Positions 3,304-9,639 of a DNA stretch of 64,000 nucleotides are shown here, piece by piece. Position 1 is the stretch's first letter; every line of letters starts with the position of its first letter. The stretch comes from Sphingomonas sp. SUN019. Lineage in GTDB: Bacteria; Pseudomonadota; Alphaproteobacteria; Sphingomonadales; Sphingomonadaceae. Where the stretch lies: positions 3,625,501 to 3,689,500 of the forward strand of contig NZ_CP096971.1 of assembly GCF_024758705.1 (NCBI RefSeq), in the 5' to 3' direction. Under the pieces are notes generated by a model. That model was not told the origin of the DNA and searched no databases. It saw nothing but the letters and a program-made list of their open reading frames with translations. The position numbers and the translations under genes are program-made.

Positions 3304-3660
3304 CCAGAGGGCTGGGCGACCGCGGGTGCTTGCACGCGAGGAAAGTCCGGGCTCCACGGAACGACGGTGCCGGGTAACGCCCGGCGAGGGTGACCTTAGG
3401 GAAAGTGCCACAGAGAGCAGACGGCTAAGGCTTAGGTCCAGTCAGAGTGAAAGGGTGCGGTAAGAGCGCACCGCGTTTCCGGTAACGGCGACGGCACGGC
3501 AAACCCCACCGGGAGCAAGATCGAATAGGGGCGGCAAATGGGCTTCGTTCCGGCCCGTCGCCCGGGTTGATTGCTTGAGCGCGCCGGCAACGGCGCGCCT
3601 AGAGGAATGGTCGCACATCTCCGCAAGGGGAGGACAGAACCCGGCTTACAGGCCCTCTGG
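3304..3660 (+). ncRNA. rnpB: RNase P RNA, bacterial type A
   Basis: Catalytic RNA that trims tRNA 5' leaders. The closing P1 helix is visible: CCAGAGGGC at 3304-3312 pairs perfectly with GCCCTCTGG at 3652-3660. Hallmarks inside are the conserved GAGGAAAGTCCGGGCTCC block (3338-3355), CACAGAGAGCAGACGGC-like CRII/CRIII sequence near 3410-3425, the GGTAAGAGCGCACCG segment, and the 3' block AGAGGAATGGTCGCACATC with GACAGAACCCGGCTTA. Length about 357 nt is normal for alphaproteobacteria. ORFs across it are spurious. Ends are set by P1 and may be off by a few bases. Confidence 0.96.
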
Positions 3661-3663
3661 TGC

Positions 3664-3714
3664 TTCGCGCGAGCCGCCTCGGAAACGAGGCGGCGGCGCG
3701 GAACGCGCGCGCGA
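3664..3714 (+). terminator. GC-rich hairpin after rnpB
   Basis: Immediately after the RNase P RNA, TTCGCGCG (3664-3671) can pair with CGCGCGAA (3707-3714), enclosing a perfect 9-bp hairpin GCCGCCTCG-GAAA-CGAGGCGGC (3673-3694) with a GAAA tetraloop. No U-tract follows, so it may be a processing or stabilising structure or a Rho-assisted terminator. Confidence 0.45.
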
Positions 3715-4345: not shown

Positions 4346-4731
4346 AACTTGCCAAGTCGCATTGGCACGGCTGCGTTCTGGTCTGCGGCAAATGTTCGAA
4401 AAAGCTGGACGGCGGCTTCGGTCCGAAGGGCCGCACCCCGCTCGCCAAGGCGCTGTCGAAACAGGACGGCTTCGGCCGCAAGCGCAAGGCCGCGATCGGC
4501 GTGGTGGAAACGAAATGCCTCGGCCTCTGCCCGAAACGCGCGGTGACGGTGGTCGACACCCGCGGCCCGGAACGCTGGCTGGTGGTGCCGGAAGCGACGG
4601 ATGCTGTTCATCTCGCGCAACTCCTCCGTCATTCCCGCGAAAGCGGGAACCCATCGCCGACACTATCCTCCGGCGAACCGGCGGTAGGCTTGGCGATGTT
4701 TGGCCCTGGGTTCCCGCTTTCGCGGGAATGA
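4333..4731 (+). CDS. (2Fe-2S) ferredoxin-like protein, tail encoded in a palindromic repeat
   Basis: 132 residues from the GTG at 4333, which overlaps the J-domain gene; longer readings of this frame lie inside that gene. Cysteines C14, C18, C21 and the CLGLC pair C62/C66 match the cysteine pattern of thioredoxin-like [2Fe-2S] ferredoxins, so an electron-transfer or sensing role is likely. Residues from about 99 to the end (starting HSRESGNPS) are encoded by an inverted repeat that also supplies the stop codon, so the native protein probably ended near residue 98 and was extended by repeat insertion. Function beyond the Fe-S inference is unknown. Confidence 0.7.
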   Translation: MEALKLAKSHWHGCVLVCGKCSKKLDGGFGPKGRTPLAKALSKQDGFGRKRKAAIGVVETKCLGLCPKRAVTVVDTRGPERWLVVPEATDAVHLAQLLRHSRESGNPSPTLSSGEPAVGLAMFGPGFPLSRE

Positions 4732-4733
4732 CG
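4628..4733. repeat. Intergenic inverted repeat, CCCGCGAAAGCGGG type
   Basis: Left arm GTCATTCCCGCGAAAGCGGG and right arm its reverse complement (ends about 4733), about 60 bp apart. Each arm is itself a short palindrome around GCGAAAGC. Related elements lie at 43419-43498 and 63894-63999. Here the element forms the 3' end of the ferredoxin-like gene. Confidence 0.85.
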
Positions 4734-4756
4734 GTTATGGCGCGCAGGGACGATCG

Positions 4757-5246: not shown

Positions 5247-5356
5247 TCCTCCCCTGCAAGGGGAGGTGGCGCGTAGCGTCGGAGGGGTATCACCCTATCG
5301 AGAGGTCGACACCCCTCCGTCTCGCTTCGCGAGCCACCTCCCCTTGCAGGGGAGGA
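5247..5356. repeat. Long intergenic palindrome, family A copy 1
   Basis: Starts TCCTCCCCTGCAAGGGGAGG and ends with the complementary CCTCCCCTTGCAGGGGAGGA. Inner segments GGAGGGGT and ACCCCTCC also pair, so the element folds into a long interrupted hairpin. Lies between sufE and the psp operon tail. Relatives are at 10313-10434, 39760-39880 and 41386-41510. Confidence 0.85.
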
Positions 5357-5368
5357 GTTTTGATCCGC

Positions 5369-5608
5369 TCACAAATCCACCCCCGCCGCGATCGCCTCCA
5401 GCTTGCGGATGCGCTCCTTCAGATCGGCGATCTCGATCCGCGCGGTCGCGCTCGGCGGCTGTGGTGACCGCACGTCATGCTCGGTCACGATCTGCCGCTG
5501 CTTCAGCTCCAGCCAGCCGCGCCAGCCCGACAGGCCCGCAAAGACCAGCATCGCCAGCCCCGCCAACGCCGCGGACGCCATGGTGAGATAGAAATTGGGA
5601 TCGGCCAC
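5369..5608 (-). CDS. Small coiled-coil membrane protein, last gene of psp operon
   Basis: 79 residues from the GTG at 5608, chosen because AGGAGG lies 7 nt upstream; the TTG at 5614 would be too close to it. One hydrophobic helix (about residues 7-27, ending in an aromatic GWRGW) is followed by a polar linker and a short C-terminal helix LKERIRKLEAI that resembles the end of PspB and of the four genes upstream. It is the most diverged member of the series and lacks the EIExLR ending. Function unknown; envelope-stress role inferred from operon position. Confidence 0.72.
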   Translation of the reverse strand: MADPNFYLTMASAALAGLAMLVFAGLSGWRGWLELKQRQIVTEHDVRSPQPPSATARIEIADLKERIRKLEAIAAGVDL

Positions 5609-5622
5609 GGCCAAACCTCCTA

Positions 5623-5871
5623 TCAGTTATCGCGCAACCGCTCGATCTCACGGTCGAGATCGATGCTCTTGCGATCGTCGGTGATGACGCGCTCCAGTAC
5701 CTGGACCCGCTCCTTCAGCTTGCGGAGTTCCTCGCGCGCGGCGGCGGCGTCCGGGCCAGCCATCGGCTGCACCTCGGCGCGGCCCATCGCGCGGTAACGT
5801 TCCTTTGAAATCCGTCCGATCGTGGCGATCAATACGATCGCGATGACCATGAGGGCGACTGACCAGGGCAT
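5623..5871 (-). CDS. PspB-like small membrane protein
   Basis: 82 residues; the ATG at 5871 has AAGGAG 7 nt upstream. An N-terminal membrane helix (about 3-20) precedes a basic patch (SKERYR) and a C-terminal coiled coil with LKERVQVLERVITDD and the terminal EIERLR motif. These match the PspB coiled coil (LEDRVNTVERIVAAD) and the neighbouring paralogues, so it is inferred to be a duplicated PspB-type adaptor. Lies 14 nt upstream of the next psp-tail gene. No enzymatic motif. Confidence 0.8.
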   Translation of the reverse strand: MPWSVALMVIAIVLIATIGRISKERYRAMGRAEVQPMAGPDAAAAREELRKLKERVQVLERVITDDRKSIDLDREIERLRDN

Positions 5872-5894
5872 TCCTGTACTCCTTGAAAAGACAG

Positions 5895-6191
5895 TCAGTT
5901 GATCGGGTGGGCGTTCGGGCCGGGCAATTCGCGCAGCCGTTCGATCTCGTCGGACAGATCGGCGCCCTTGTCGGTCGCGATCCGCTCCAGTACGCGAACG
6001 CGTTGTTCCAGCCGCTCGGTGTGCGCCGCATATTGCGCCGCCCGTTCCGCGGTTTCGTGGTTCAGCGCCTCCGCCAGCTTCTCCTTGTGCTTCAGCCAGC
6101 GTTTGAACATGTCGCCGCCCACGCCGAAGATCACCGGCAGGCCGACCACGATCATGAAGAAGGCGAGTACGAACCAGTATTTGTCCTGCAT
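5895..6191 (-). CDS. PspB-like small membrane protein
   Basis: 98 residues, GAGGGG 5 nt before the ATG. One hydrophobic segment (about 6-27), then a long charged helix through residue 85 with LEQRVRVLERIATDKG and EIERLR, matching the coiled coil of PspB and the adjacent genes. This copy has a longer helical stalk (about residues 30-65, rich in Ala, Glu, Lys) than the others. Predicted inner-membrane protein with a cytoplasmic coiled coil, inferred to take part in the Psp envelope-stress response. Confidence 0.8.
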   Translation of the reverse strand: MQDKYWFVLAFFMIVVGLPVIFGVGGDMFKRWLKHKEKLAEALNHETAERAAQYAAHTERLEQRVRVLERIATDKGADLSDEIERLRELPGPNAHPIN

Positions 6192-6200
6192 GTCGGCCCC

Positions 6201-6527
6201 TCAGTTCGCGCGGTCGCGGAGGTTTTCGATCTCGTGGCTCAGCATATTCCCGCTGTCGGTCACGATCCGCTCGACGTTCTGCAGCCGGTCCTTGATCGAC
6301 CCGAGTTCGGCGCGCAGCCCGGCGTTCTCCTGCGTCAGCAGCTTCACGCGCTCGATCGTCTCGTCGTCGCGCTTCGGATACAGCGCCTGGCCCCATTGCC
6401 CGTCGAGCGGGTAACCGTTCTTGATCCGCAGCCAGGTGGTGATGACCCACCCGCCGATCCCCAGCGACGCCAGGATCGCGATGAACGGGAACAGCGTCTG
6501 CAACATGGCAAGTTTCTCGGGCGACAT
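6201..6527 (-). CDS. PspB-like small membrane protein
   Basis: 108 residues; AAAGGATAGG precedes the ATG. A membrane helix at about 8-30 ends in WVITTWLRIKNGYPL, closely similar to WVLTTWIRAKHGYPV in the next gene upstream (6546-6836), showing recent duplication of that pair. The C-terminal coiled coil carries IKDRLQNVERIVTDSG and EIENLR. Inferred psp adaptor paralogue; no catalytic residues. Confidence 0.82.
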   Translation of the reverse strand: MSPEKLAMLQTLFPFIAILASLGIGGWVITTWLRIKNGYPLDGQWGQALYPKRDDETIERVKLLTQENAGLRAELGSIKDRLQNVERIVTDSGNMLSHEIENLRDRAN

Positions 6528-6545
6528 ATCCTATCCTTTCAGAAT

Positions 6546-6836
6546 TCAGCGCAGCGCGTCGATTTCGCGGGCGGTCCGCTCGGCGGGATCGGTGGCGATG
6601 CGTTCCAGCACCGCGATCCGCTCTTCCAGCCGGCTGACCTGACCGGTCAGACGCTCGTTCTCGCTCGACAGCAACTGCACCTTCCGCGTGCCGTCGGGGT
6701 CGCCGCGATGCGTCGCGCCGCTCCATTCGTTTTCGACCGGATAGCCGTGCTTCGCGCGGATCCATGTCGTCAGCACCCAACCGATCGTGCTGATCGCGAT
6801 GATCGCCAGCACGAAACCCGGTCCACCAAAATGCAT
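6546..6836 (-). CDS. PspB-like small membrane protein
   Basis: 96 residues; AGGAG sits 7 nt before the ATG. Membrane helix about 7-26, then IRAKHGYPVENEWSG shared with the downstream paralogue (IKNGYPLDGQWGQ), then a coiled coil with LEERIAVLERIATDP and EIDALR. It directly follows pspC (26 nt gap). Together with the three genes after it this forms an array of PspB-like proteins; roles within the array cannot be separated from sequence. Confidence 0.82.
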   Translation of the reverse strand: MHFGGPGFVLAIIAISTIGWVLTTWIRAKHGYPVENEWSGATHRGDPDGTRKVQLLSSENERLTGQVSRLEERIAVLERIATDPAERTAREIDALR

Positions 6837-7538: not shown

Positions 7539-8213
7539 CTAAGCTTCGTTATTCTTGTTCAGCCGCGCCTTCAGCGCCGCCAGGTCCGCATCGACGCGCT
7601 CGCTCGATCGCAGTTCGGCGATTTCCTCGTCCAGCGACTTCGGCAGCGCGCCCAGGCCCATCGCATCGGCGCGGCCTTCGGCCTCGTCCACGCGGCGTTC
7701 CAGCACGTCGAACCGGCTGAACGCCTCGTGCGTCTTCGGCCCGTTCCACATTTCGCGCAGGCGGCTGCGGTTGTTCGCGCTTTCCAGCCGCGTCGCGATG
7801 CCGTTCTGCTTCGTGCGGGCCTCGCGGAGCTTCGACTGCAGCTTGCCGATGTCTTCCTCCGAACTGCGCAACGCATCGTCTAGCACCTTCACCTCGGCGC
7901 GAAGCTGATCGGCCATGTCGGTCGCCTTCTGGCGTTCGACCAGCGCGGCCTTGGCCAGATCCTCGCGGTCCTTCGACAGCGCCAGCTCGGCCTTTTCGGT
8001 CCAGTTGACCTCCAGGCCTTCCAGCTTGGCGATATGGCGCCGCATCTCCTTGCTGTCGGCGATGGTGCGCGCGGCGGACGCGCGCACCTCGACCAGCGTC
8101 TCCTCCATCTCCAGGATGATCATGCGGATCATCTTGGCCGGGTCTTCCGCTTTCTCAAGCAGTTCGGCCATGTTGGCGGCGACGATGTCGCGGGTGCGGG
8201 AAAAAATGCCCAT
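7539..8213 (-). CDS. pspA: PspA phage-shock protein
   Basis: ESCRT-III/Vipp1-family coiled-coil protein that binds and stabilises damaged inner membrane and, when free, inhibits PspF. 224 residues, the normal length. It starts with the amphipathic helix MGIFSRTRDIVAANM, then the conserved AEDPAKMIRMIILEMEETL, and is helical throughout, ending in a short C-terminal helix. Second gene of the sigma-54-type operon, 83 nt after the 46-residue peptide gene. Confidence 0.97.
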   Translation of the reverse strand: MGIFSRTRDIVAANMAELLEKAEDPAKMIRMIILEMEETLVEVRASAARTIADSKEMRRHIAKLEGLEVNWTEKAELALSKDREDLAKAALVERQKATDMADQLRAEVKVLDDALRSSEEDIGKLQSKLREARTKQNGIATRLESANNRSRLREMWNGPKTHEAFSRFDVLERRVDEAEGRADAMGLGALPKSLDEEIAELRSSERVDADLAALKARLNKNNEA

Positions 8214-8296: not shown

Positions 8297-8437
8297 TCAC
8301 GCAATCGCGCGAACGATCTTCGCCGGCGCGTTGTTCGCCGCTGCCGGGCCTACCGCGCCCAGCACCATCGTGGTGCTGAGAACCAGTGTGCAGGCGATGG
8401 CGGCAAGCGTGCGGCCGATGTTCTCGAACTTGATCAT
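8297..8437 (-). CDS. 46-residue secreted peptide heading the psp operon
   Basis: A short gene: ATG at 8435-8437 on the minus strand, stop at 8297-8299, with AGGAG 8 nt upstream (AAGAGGAGTTTCGCCATG). The product starts MIKFENIGRT, has a hydrophobic core LAAIACTLVLSTTMVLGAV and a likely signal-peptidase site after AVGPAAA, leaving a mature peptide of only about 12 residues (NNAPAKIVRAIA); it could instead remain membrane-anchored. It is the first gene after the sigma-54 promoter and so should be induced with pspA. Not a family I can name; function unknown. Confidence 0.72.
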   Translation of the reverse strand: MIKFENIGRTLAAIACTLVLSTTMVLGAVGPAAANNAPAKIVRAIA

Positions 8438-8497
8438 GGCGAAACTCCTCTTTTCCTGAACTTTAGCAACCGCTCCTTGGCAGGTTGCACGATGCTC

Positions 8498-8513
8498 TGC
8501 AGGGTGCGTGCCA
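8498..8513 (-). promoter_or_regulatory. Sigma-54 (-24/-12) promoter of the psp operon
   Basis: On the minus strand the sequence reads TGGCACGCACCCTGCA. Against the consensus TGGCACG-N4-TTGCA only one base differs, and the GG and GC elements are exactly 10 nt apart. Transcription would start near 8487, giving a leader of about 50 nt before the small peptide gene. The divergent gene encodes PspF, the sigma-54 activator, and its binding sites are expected in 8514-8613; I did not identify them individually. Confidence 0.85.
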
Positions 8514-8613: not shown

Positions 8614-9639
8614 ATGGAGCGGGCGACTCAGGTCATCGGGCAATCGGGCGCGTTCCTCGACGCGCTGGAACGTGCCAGCCGCGCCGCGGCGCTCGACCGC
8701 CCGGTGCTGGTGATCGGCGAGCGCGGCACGGGTAAGGAACTGGTCGCCGAACGCCTCCACCGCCTCAGCCCACGCTGGGACCAGCCGCTGGTTATCATGA
8801 ACTGCGCCGCACTGCCCGAAACGCTGATCGAAGCCGAATTGTTCGGGCATGAGGCGGGCGCGTTCACCGGTGCGACGAAGGCGCGGGTCGGGCGGTTCGA
8901 GGAGGCCGACGGCGGCACGCTCTTCCTCGACGAACTCGGCACCTTGTCGATGGGCGCACAAGAACGGCTGCTGCGCGCAGTCGAATATGGCGAGATCCAC
9001 CGCATCGGATCGTCGCGCGCCACCCGCGTCGATGTGCGTATCGTCGCGGCGACCAATGAACACCTTCCCGACAAGGTCGACCGTCACGAATTTCGCGCCG
9101 ACCTGCTCGATCGTCTCTCGTTCGAGGTCGTGACGCTGCCCCCGCTGCGCGCACGTAAATCCGACATCCTCATCCTCGCCGACCATTTCGCGCGCCGCAT
9201 GGCGGCCGAACTGGGCTGGGACAGCTTTCCCGGCTTCGCGCCAGAGGCGCAGGAGGCGCTGCGCGACTATCGCTGGCCGGGCAACGTGCGCGAACTCCGC
9301 AACGTCGTCGAACGCGCGGTCTATCGCTGGGACGCCGACGATCCGATCGAGCGGATCGAATTCGACCCGTTCACATCGCCGTACCGTCCGGGCACGTCAG
9401 TGCCAACTTCGGCACCGGCAGTGCAAACATCCGACAACAACGGGGACGAGGTTGCGGCCTGCGACGTCGGTCCGTCGGATTTCAAATCCCGCGTCGCGCA
9501 ATTCGAACGCGACATGCTGACCCGGGCACTCGCCGACCACCGCTTCAACCAGCGCGCCACCGCAGAGGCGCTGGGCCTCAGCTACGACCAGCTTCGCCAC
9601 GCGCTCCGTCGTCATGATCTAATCGGAACGGTGGCGTAA
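8614..9639 (+). CDS. pspF: PspF sigma-54-dependent activator of the psp operon
   Basis: AAA+ enhancer-binding protein that drives sigma-54 RNA polymerase at psp promoters and is held inactive by PspA. 341 residues from the ATG at 8614, chosen because it aligns with the short N-terminus of known PspF (no receiver domain) and because an upstream ATG at 8485 would run through the psp promoter. Motifs: Walker A GERGTGKE, GAFTGA loop (HEAGAFTGA) for sigma-54 contact, Walker B GGTLFLDEL, arginine finger region FRADLLDRL, and a C-terminal Fis-type helix-turn-helix (NQRATAEALGLSYDQLRHAL). Confidence 0.95.
   Translation: MERATQVIGQSGAFLDALERASRAAALDRPVLVIGERGTGKELVAERLHRLSPRWDQPLVIMNCAALPETLIEAELFGHEAGAFTGATKARVGRFEEADGGTLFLDELGTLSMGAQERLLRAVEYGEIHRIGSSRATRVDVRIVAATNEHLPDKVDRHEFRADLLDRLSFEVVTLPPLRARKSDILILADHFARRMAAELGWDSFPGFAPEAQEALRDYRWPGNVRELRNVVERAVYRWDADDPIERIEFDPFTSPYRPGTSVPTSAPAVQTSDNNGDEVAACDVGPSDFKSRVAQFERDMLTRALADHRFNQRATAEALGLSYDQLRHALRRHDLIGTVA

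Follow-up and report, generated by a model that had tools for sequence, protein, structure and literature searches.

The window analysed here, a stretch of 64,000 nucleotides from Sphingomonas sp. SUN019, carries a psp locus on its (-) strand, where a 46-aa ORF, pspA, pspB, pspC and five further small genes, named P1 to P5 and together called the array, follow one another in that order, and a pspF-type gene diverges from them on the (+) strand. The features of the locus are the following:

8614..9639 (+), pspF-type activator gene, divergent; the ORF opens at 8485 and the ATG at 8614 is the likely start
8498..8513 (-), sigma54-type -24/-12 site TGGCACGCACCCTGCA, the sole match with at most one mismatch in the window
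8297..8437 (-), small hydrophobic ORF of 46 aa, between the sigma54-type site and pspA
7539..8213 (-), pspA, TIGR02977 266.9 bits
7243..7527 (-), pspB, PF06667 90.3 bits and TIGR02976 81.0 bits
6863..7243 (-), pspC, TIGR02978 120.3 bits (cut-off 104), with a C-terminal zipper tail ending EIESLR
6546..6836 (-), P1, single-pass membrane zipper protein of 96 aa, GYP(L/V)E..W juxtamembrane motif class, zipper at 6549-6650
6201..6527 (-), P2, membrane zipper protein of 108 aa, same class as P1, zipper at 6216-6317
5895..6191 (-), P3, membrane zipper protein of 98 aa, TAExAAQYA class, zipper at 5931-6032
5623..5871 (-), P4, short membrane zipper protein of 82 aa, class usually last before P5, zipper at 5632-5739
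5369..5608 (-), P5, terminal subfamily, 79 aa, signature RIExADLKERIRKLEAIAxGVDL, GTG start with a perfect AGGAGG

The intergenic gaps from pspC through P1, P2, P3 and P4 to P5 are 26, 18, 9, 23 and 14 nt, respectively. A terminator-like site was searched on the (-) strand between 4700 and 9000, and none was found. Downstream of P5 lie an inverted repeat (5247-5356) and then a sufE-like gene. Long palindromic elements are found in intergenic DNA at 4626-4734 and 5247-5356, with arms of 33 and 27 nt, respectively, that are 94-96% complementary; the latter is the repeat directly past P5. The window also contains a bacterial RNase P RNA of class A (3304-3664, (+) strand, 294.7 bits).

A preliminary description of this DNA had noted five genes in the same direction after pspC, each coding for an N-terminal membrane helix and a C-terminal coiled coil, and the ORFs, their hydropathy and an AlphaFold model of P1 agree with it. 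Each of the five proteins has a single N-terminal hydrophobic stretch, with a 19-residue mean hydropathy of 2.0 to 2.6, and a C-terminal zipper, and the P1 model (mean pLDDT 82) consists of a helix at residues 6-30 and one continuous helix at residues 47-95. The AlphaFold model of PspC was poor (pLDDT 59) and was set aside, and the search for relatives of solved structure gave only generic coils, none of them useful. The motif [LI]xxRxxx[LV]ER[IV]xTD and an EI[ED]xLR end are common to P1-P4, in line with the EIExLR-type end previously attributed to four of the proteins, whereas the stricter motif LxxRxxxLERIxTD, also attributed to four, is exact in P1 and P3 and has one or two changes in P2 and P4. 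P5, which had been called diverged, indeed belongs to a separate and strongly conserved subfamily; it has the zipper core but ends in LEAIAAGVDL and lacks an EIxxLR-type ending. Its start had been placed at 5614, a TTG codon with a poorer ribosome site, and is moved here to the GTG at 5608.

Array members throughout the Sphingomonadaceae have the same form, with one hydrophobic stretch and a second one in none of 327 proteins. The C-side flank of the membrane helix is the more positive one in 270 of the 327 and the N-side flank in 23, so that the proteins are predicted to have their N-terminus outside and their C-terminus in the cytoplasm. To evaluate selection, the 15 closest usable relatives of each protein were compared. 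The dN/dS values of P1 to P5 are 0.32, 0.26, 0.28, 0.44 and 0.23, respectively, and those of PspA, PspB and PspC in the same comparison are 0.15, 0.21 and 0.12. P1-P5 are under purifying selection, P4 the least.

The sigma54-type site ahead of pspA was then surveyed in the 94 of 101 family loci that were usable for this purpose. In 71 of the 94 loci the DNA upstream of pspA contains such a site with no more than one mismatch, compared to 8 of 1880 mononucleotide shuffles. P1-P5 thus probably lie behind the pspF/sigma54-type promoter in the same transcription unit as pspA, as judged from the layout of the locus; the literature searched yielded no transcript data for array genes. The 46-aa ORF at 8297-8437, which is hydrophobic, looks secreted, has a Shine-Dalgarno site and gave no Pfam match, is probably the first gene of this operon. 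Hydrophobic small ORFs were found at the same place, between the sigma54 site and pspA, in 77 of the 94 loci by a simple pattern that takes no account of likeness between them. The ORF may be the counterpart of ZMO1062 of Zymomonas, which is named pspD in the part of PMC8645129 available to us. Two Zymomonas papers, this one included, report the psp genes and ZMO1062, and the array is absent from the portions of their texts that were accessible.

PspB was detected in 137 of 149 genomes of the family, and 100 of these 137, together with the window, provided 101 psp loci for comparison. At least one array gene other than P5 lies behind pspBC in 99 of the 101 loci, with one to seven genes per locus: none in 2 loci, one in 10, two in 8, three in 40, four in 23, five in 12, six in 5 and seven in 1. 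These members total 335, including one weak, P5-like member (L083). P5 occurs once in 90 of the 101 loci, some of the 11 misses being possibly due to contig ends, and it is the last gene, both by start and by stop, in all 89 loci that also have other array members. The genes are closely spaced, with 98% of 527 gaps between neighbouring genes ranging from -60 to 150 nt. Similarly, among the 80 named loci nearest in P5, mostly from Sphingomonas, 78 read PspA, PspB, PspC, then two to five array genes, then P5, and the remaining two read as the strings '5' and 'xx5'; by stop position all 80 end in P5, and by ORF opening 6 of the 80 differ. The array is more than a chance arrangement, since it follows pspBC in 99 of the 101 loci and its five genes in the window have dN/dS values of 0.23-0.44.

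The array members were assigned to classes by ad hoc motifs and by clustering, and the cluster counts are preferred here because class III, as defined by motif, is a mere remainder. Clustering of the 335 members gave three large clusters (120, 98 and 93 members), represented in 78, 76 and 91 loci of the 101, respectively, and eight small ones with 24 members in all. The short P4-type cluster is the last before P5 in 77 of 82 loci, compared to 23.1 expected at random order. The array had been presented as duplicated, and it is a row of paralogues, but they are not recent copies: the best match is in the same locus for only 1 of the 335 members. Recent tandem duplication was thus rejected, and the array genes are old paralogues that have been kept separately. 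Between members of different classes the zippers are 43-47% identical and the N-terminal parts 26-28%, and within a class the values are 60% and 40%, respectively (150 sampled pairs per group).

The coil of these proteins had been reported to match PspB. Against the Pfam PspB model PF06667 (gathering cut-off 25.6 bits), P1 and P3 score 11.8 and 12.0 bits, and P2, P4 and P5 give no match; against NCBIfam TIGR02976 (cut-off 51.7), P4, P3 and P1 score 20.1, 19.0 and 9.9 bits, and P2 and P5 give no match. The PspC domain PF04024 matches none of the five, and P1-P5 thus remain below all PspB and PspC cut-offs. We had considered that they might not be PspB at all. However, in 6 of the 149 family genomes a second gene scores above the Pfam PspB threshold, and the five of these six that could be placed are all array members, four of P3 type and one of P4 type. 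The idea was therefore dropped, and the scores indicate that the array family shades into PspB and that the kinship is real. When 36 varied array members were compared to the models at E <= 0.05, TIGR02978 (PspC) matched 16 of them, TIGR02976 (PspB) 14 and the Pfam PspB family 7. The last is the Pfam family matched by most of them, and the lowest single E-values are on PspB models.

Profile-profile comparisons, in which one truncated PspC row (L108) was left out of the alignment, extend this kinship to PspC. With hhalign, the match of the array to the PspC tail spans 36 columns and runs to the C-terminus (E 3.1e-6, probability 88), that to PspB spans 18 columns (E 2.5e-5, probability 75) and that to P5 spans 51 columns (E 2.5e-7, probability 93), and PspB and PspC align with each other at probability 52. 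P5 gave no match to PspB in this comparison. The end of the zipper distinguishes the two partners: the pattern [EQ][IM]xxL closes 315 of 335 array members and 101 of 102 PspC sequences and is found in 0 of 101 PspB. By these alignments, the array shares its zipper core with both PspB and PspC, and the end of its zipper with PspC alone. The earlier assignment of the coil to PspB is borne out to the extent that array members of relatives pass the Pfam PspB score, and is corrected as regards the end.

A resemblance of this kind might be that of coiled coils in general, with no function in common with Psp. Array profiles also match prefoldin, KcsA and a designed zipper (E 8e-4 to 0.04), a bZIP model weakly matches 5 of the 36 varied members, and in the window's own genome the zipper-only model finds PspB and PspC at E 0.05 and 0.28, with one match ranked between them and another just after and with P5 not among the matches at E <= 1. 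Yet this explanation appears most improbable, as the median scores of PspC, PspB and P5 with the same model are 12.6, 9.7 and 8.0 bits, respectively, compared to 1.4 for PspA, itself a coiled coil, and the medians of reversed sequences and of shuffles that keep the heptads do not exceed 0.3. Chance coiled-coil likeness was rejected on these controls. The array members of relatives above the PspB cut-off, the linkage in 99 of 101 loci and a near-invariant charge pair argue against it as well.

This charge pair stands within zipper heptads that have hydrophobic residues at positions a and d. An R at g and an E at e', from i to i+5, are present in 331 of 335 array members, 90 of 90 P5 and 101 of 101 PspB. 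The pair is also found in all 77 PspC rows that are aligned at these columns, 25 of the 102 PspC rows falling short of them, and by a simple pattern in 99 of the 102; by reading, E. coli PspB and PspC carry it too. Pairs of this type bridge two helices in parallel coiled coils. Since the pair is near-invariant in the array, P5, PspB and PspC, all four could pair with each other. Mixed coiled-coil complexes, as proposed in the preliminary description, would be consistent with the heptads and the R(g)/E(e') pair that the groups have in common, and they might, as also proposed there, broaden the range of stress signals sensed.

Genomes that lack parts of the system were also informative. Thirteen family genomes are without a PspB match, twelve of them being the remainder of the 149 and one coming from a further search, and 9 of these, which were searched with PspB and PspA, are also without PspA and array matches. 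Two others (G065 and G082) have psp cut at contig ends, so that their missing PspB is uninformative. A further one (G261) has no pspB match and keeps pspF, pspA, pspC and three array genes. The last (G040, L296:3288-4904) combines pspA with a pspC that stops short of the zipper tail, gives no pspB match and has two array genes whose tails are intact; this single case reads like a PspC tail function that would be carried in trans by array genes. The order-wide comparison covered 147 genomes, three array-negative ones being assigned by elimination: 122 have both the array and PspB, 2 the array only, 12 PspB only and 11 neither (Fisher p 7.5e-9, kinship of the genomes ignored). With four weak matches counted as absent, the numbers are 118, 2, 16 and 11 (Fisher p 6.8e-8, again ignoring kinship). 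In the order-, class- and phylum-wide searches the candidates were partly scored for some genomes, and absences in these sets are soft. That the array is appended to the psp operon, as first suggested, thus agrees with the short gaps, the sigma54-type site, the survey of psp loci, the order-wide co-occurrence with PspB and the absence of the array in the 9 family genomes without PspA and PspB.

These distributions bear on another explanation, according to which the array would be a different single-pass zipper system, of the FtsL/FtsB/DivIC-like division type or a secretion system, that shares just its transcription with psp. It draws on weak matches to FtsL, ZapB and DivIC models and on relatives outside the family that are situated near rpoD- and dnaG-like genes. 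The FtsL type, however, has a topology opposite to N-out/C-in and is disfavoured by the charge pattern of 270 of 327 members, all 9 family genomes that lack PspA and PspB matches lack the array as well, and no Pfam family matches more of the 36 varied array members than PspB does, with 7. We consider such a system improbable.

Outside the family, copies are fewer and mostly unlinked to psp. Genomes of other families of the order usually have one or two array-type matches, and three in one case. Among 21 chosen genomes of these families, 19 have matches, most copies being far from psp or on another contig; a copy adjoins pspC in three of the 21, all of one family and each with a second copy elsewhere. 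Of 16 unlinked loci, 10 share an RpoD-like and 5 a DnaG-like neighbour, as assigned by eye without a family search. The class-wide search gave a match in 9 of 240 genomes, three of them in the window's family, which suggested an order-restricted gene. This was dropped, as other classes of the phylum carry copies: in a phylum-wide sample, 34 of 299 genomes have a match, of which 18 (6 of them weak) belong to other classes, 13 to the window's family and 3 to the rest of its class. One of these proteins (G709) is identical to a protein of Thalassotalea agarivorans and has relatives in Colwellia and Pseudoalteromonas. Thirteen stretches outside the family, of about 4.5 kb either way, contained no match to PspA, PspB, PspC or PspF of the window's genome or to E. 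coli PspB. Three loci outside the order (L288:4471-5035, L293:4230-4724 and L294:4374-4874) have tandem pairs of array-like genes with no psp match within about 4.5 kb.

As copies outside the family are mostly unlinked to psp, the module may also act apart from it. The stand-alone protein appears to be wider in distribution and perhaps older, and the Sphingomonadaceae appear to have captured it and multiplied copies behind pspC; this direction is read from the distribution rather than from a rooted tree, and copies might instead have escaped from psp. A profile search of a large database kept at least 7998 of 7999 scored candidates, and the named ones among the 120 matches listed are nearly all from Sphingomonadales. 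The same tail is also found in a soluble zinc-ribbon-like protein of 127 aa, encoded in the same genome far from psp (L153:5751-6134), one further strong match of the zipper-only model. It scores below the cut-off of DUF6487, a family that is precomputed for part of its listed homologues; it has 719 homologues in the large database and is present at full length in 3 of 147 genomes of the order.

We consider it on balance likely that the array is part of the Psp system and supplies the PspA/PspF switch with further copies of the PspB/PspC interaction helix on different anchors. Rows of array genes occur throughout the family but not in the sampled relatives that lack the stress genes, which makes it probable that these genes are additional components of the stress switch. 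The product of each array gene would be a small protein of the inner membrane that has its N-terminus outside and presents, at its cytoplasmic C-terminus, a zipper helix as in PspB and PspC. The members could then take part in the same pairing, binding PspB, the PspC tail, PspA or one another, and PspA might be held or released according to what their differing membrane and juxtamembrane parts sense. Both the sensing by the N-terminal parts and the effect on PspA/PspF are what we infer from the arrangement.

To our knowledge, the field has yet to settle how PspB and PspC perceive stress and pass the signal on to PspA, and a study of 2016, as its title is said to put it, found that cytoplasmic contacts between PspB and PspC silence the response. 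In the known switch, PspB and PspC pair through their cytoplasmic parts as long as the system is off. According to the accessible part of PMC5596341, PspB and PspC of Yersinia are joined in a membrane complex, and once the system is on, the cytoplasmic tail of PspC binds PspA and thereby frees PspF. The leucine zipper of E. coli PspC is likewise described, in the part of PMC3068692 available, as needed for interaction with PspA and for induction. However, the same part describes PspB-PspC binding that does not depend on the zipper, and two topologies of PspC with a tail that is putatively periplasmic; these findings speak against a simple zipper switch. As support for the switch reading, heptad and charge rules are only suggestive.

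Alternatively, the array proteins might be effectors instead of signal adaptors, anchoring PspA scaffolds at the membrane or stabilising the membrane themselves, as PspD and PspG of enterobacteria are thought to do. The array is in the same probable transcription unit as pspA, a copy number that varies from 0 to 7 between loci suits a dose more than a fixed switch, and the tail of the soluble zinc-ribbon-like protein suggests that such a tail may merely recruit partners. We nevertheless regard this role as rather unlikely, since the likeness to the tail of PspC, which is regulatory, extends to the very end, and since the class order is nearly fixed and the N-terminal parts are conserved within classes, which suggests separate roles and not a bulk effect.

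A wider version of the adaptor reading, which we regard as less likely than not, is that Psp of the Sphingomonadaceae is a combinatorial sensor with one to seven anchors, each having its own membrane and juxtamembrane sequences and all using one interchangeable zipper code. The possible partners of any anchor would be PspB, the PspC tail, P5, PspA and even the soluble zinc-ribbon-like tail carrier. Lineages might then tune their stress spectrum by gaining or dropping anchors, and the function of the PspC tail could even be handed over, as in L296. Nature offers hundreds of variants of this helix on differing anchors (335 in 101 loci), and together with the two genomes that keep the array without a PspB match they make it directly testable which part senses and which docks. 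A function is also suggested for many genes annotated as 'hypothetical protein'.

Compared to known systems, the array proteins resemble PspB (PF06667, TIGR02976) in their one N-terminal membrane helix, the same charge pattern, the R(g)/E(e') zipper core and the same operon. They differ from it in that P1-P5 reach at most 12.0 of 25.6 bits with Pfam and 20.1 of 51.7 with NCBIfam, and in that PspB has an invariant P after the core (16 of 16 rows) and never the [EQ][IM]xxL end (0 of 101). With the PspC tail (TIGR02978 positions 73-121) they share the zipper and the EIxxLR end, aligned over 36 columns to the C-terminus, but they have no PF04024 domain and a single membrane helix, and thus look like free-standing tails on other anchors. 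The stand-alone relatives of Thalassotalea, Colwellia and Pseudoalteromonas, variously named in their sources hypothetical protein, phage shock protein B or phage shock protein C, among others, are mostly membrane zipper proteins of 75-80 aa that match the same profile. Unlike the array, they give one to three matches per genome, with no psp match in stretches of 9.5 kb.

The array is not mentioned in the accessible part of a survey of 2022 (PMC9239133), and no account of it, its classes, its order, its PspC-tail kinship or its joint loss was found in the literature searched, subscription papers and supplements being beyond reach. The closest description is that of PMC11237479 (2024), which in its available part states that PspB duplicates occur in the psp operon, with AOL22920.1 as an example, and that a divergent PspB part is found at the C-terminus of PspC. 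The duplicates are treated there in one sentence, and the available text says nothing on the length of an array, its classes, P5, the gene order, a joint loss or the spread. As far as these partly available sources allow, 'PspB duplicates' in psp operons are thus already in print, and the classes of the array, their order, the kinship with the PspC tail and the joint loss with PspA and PspB appear to be new.
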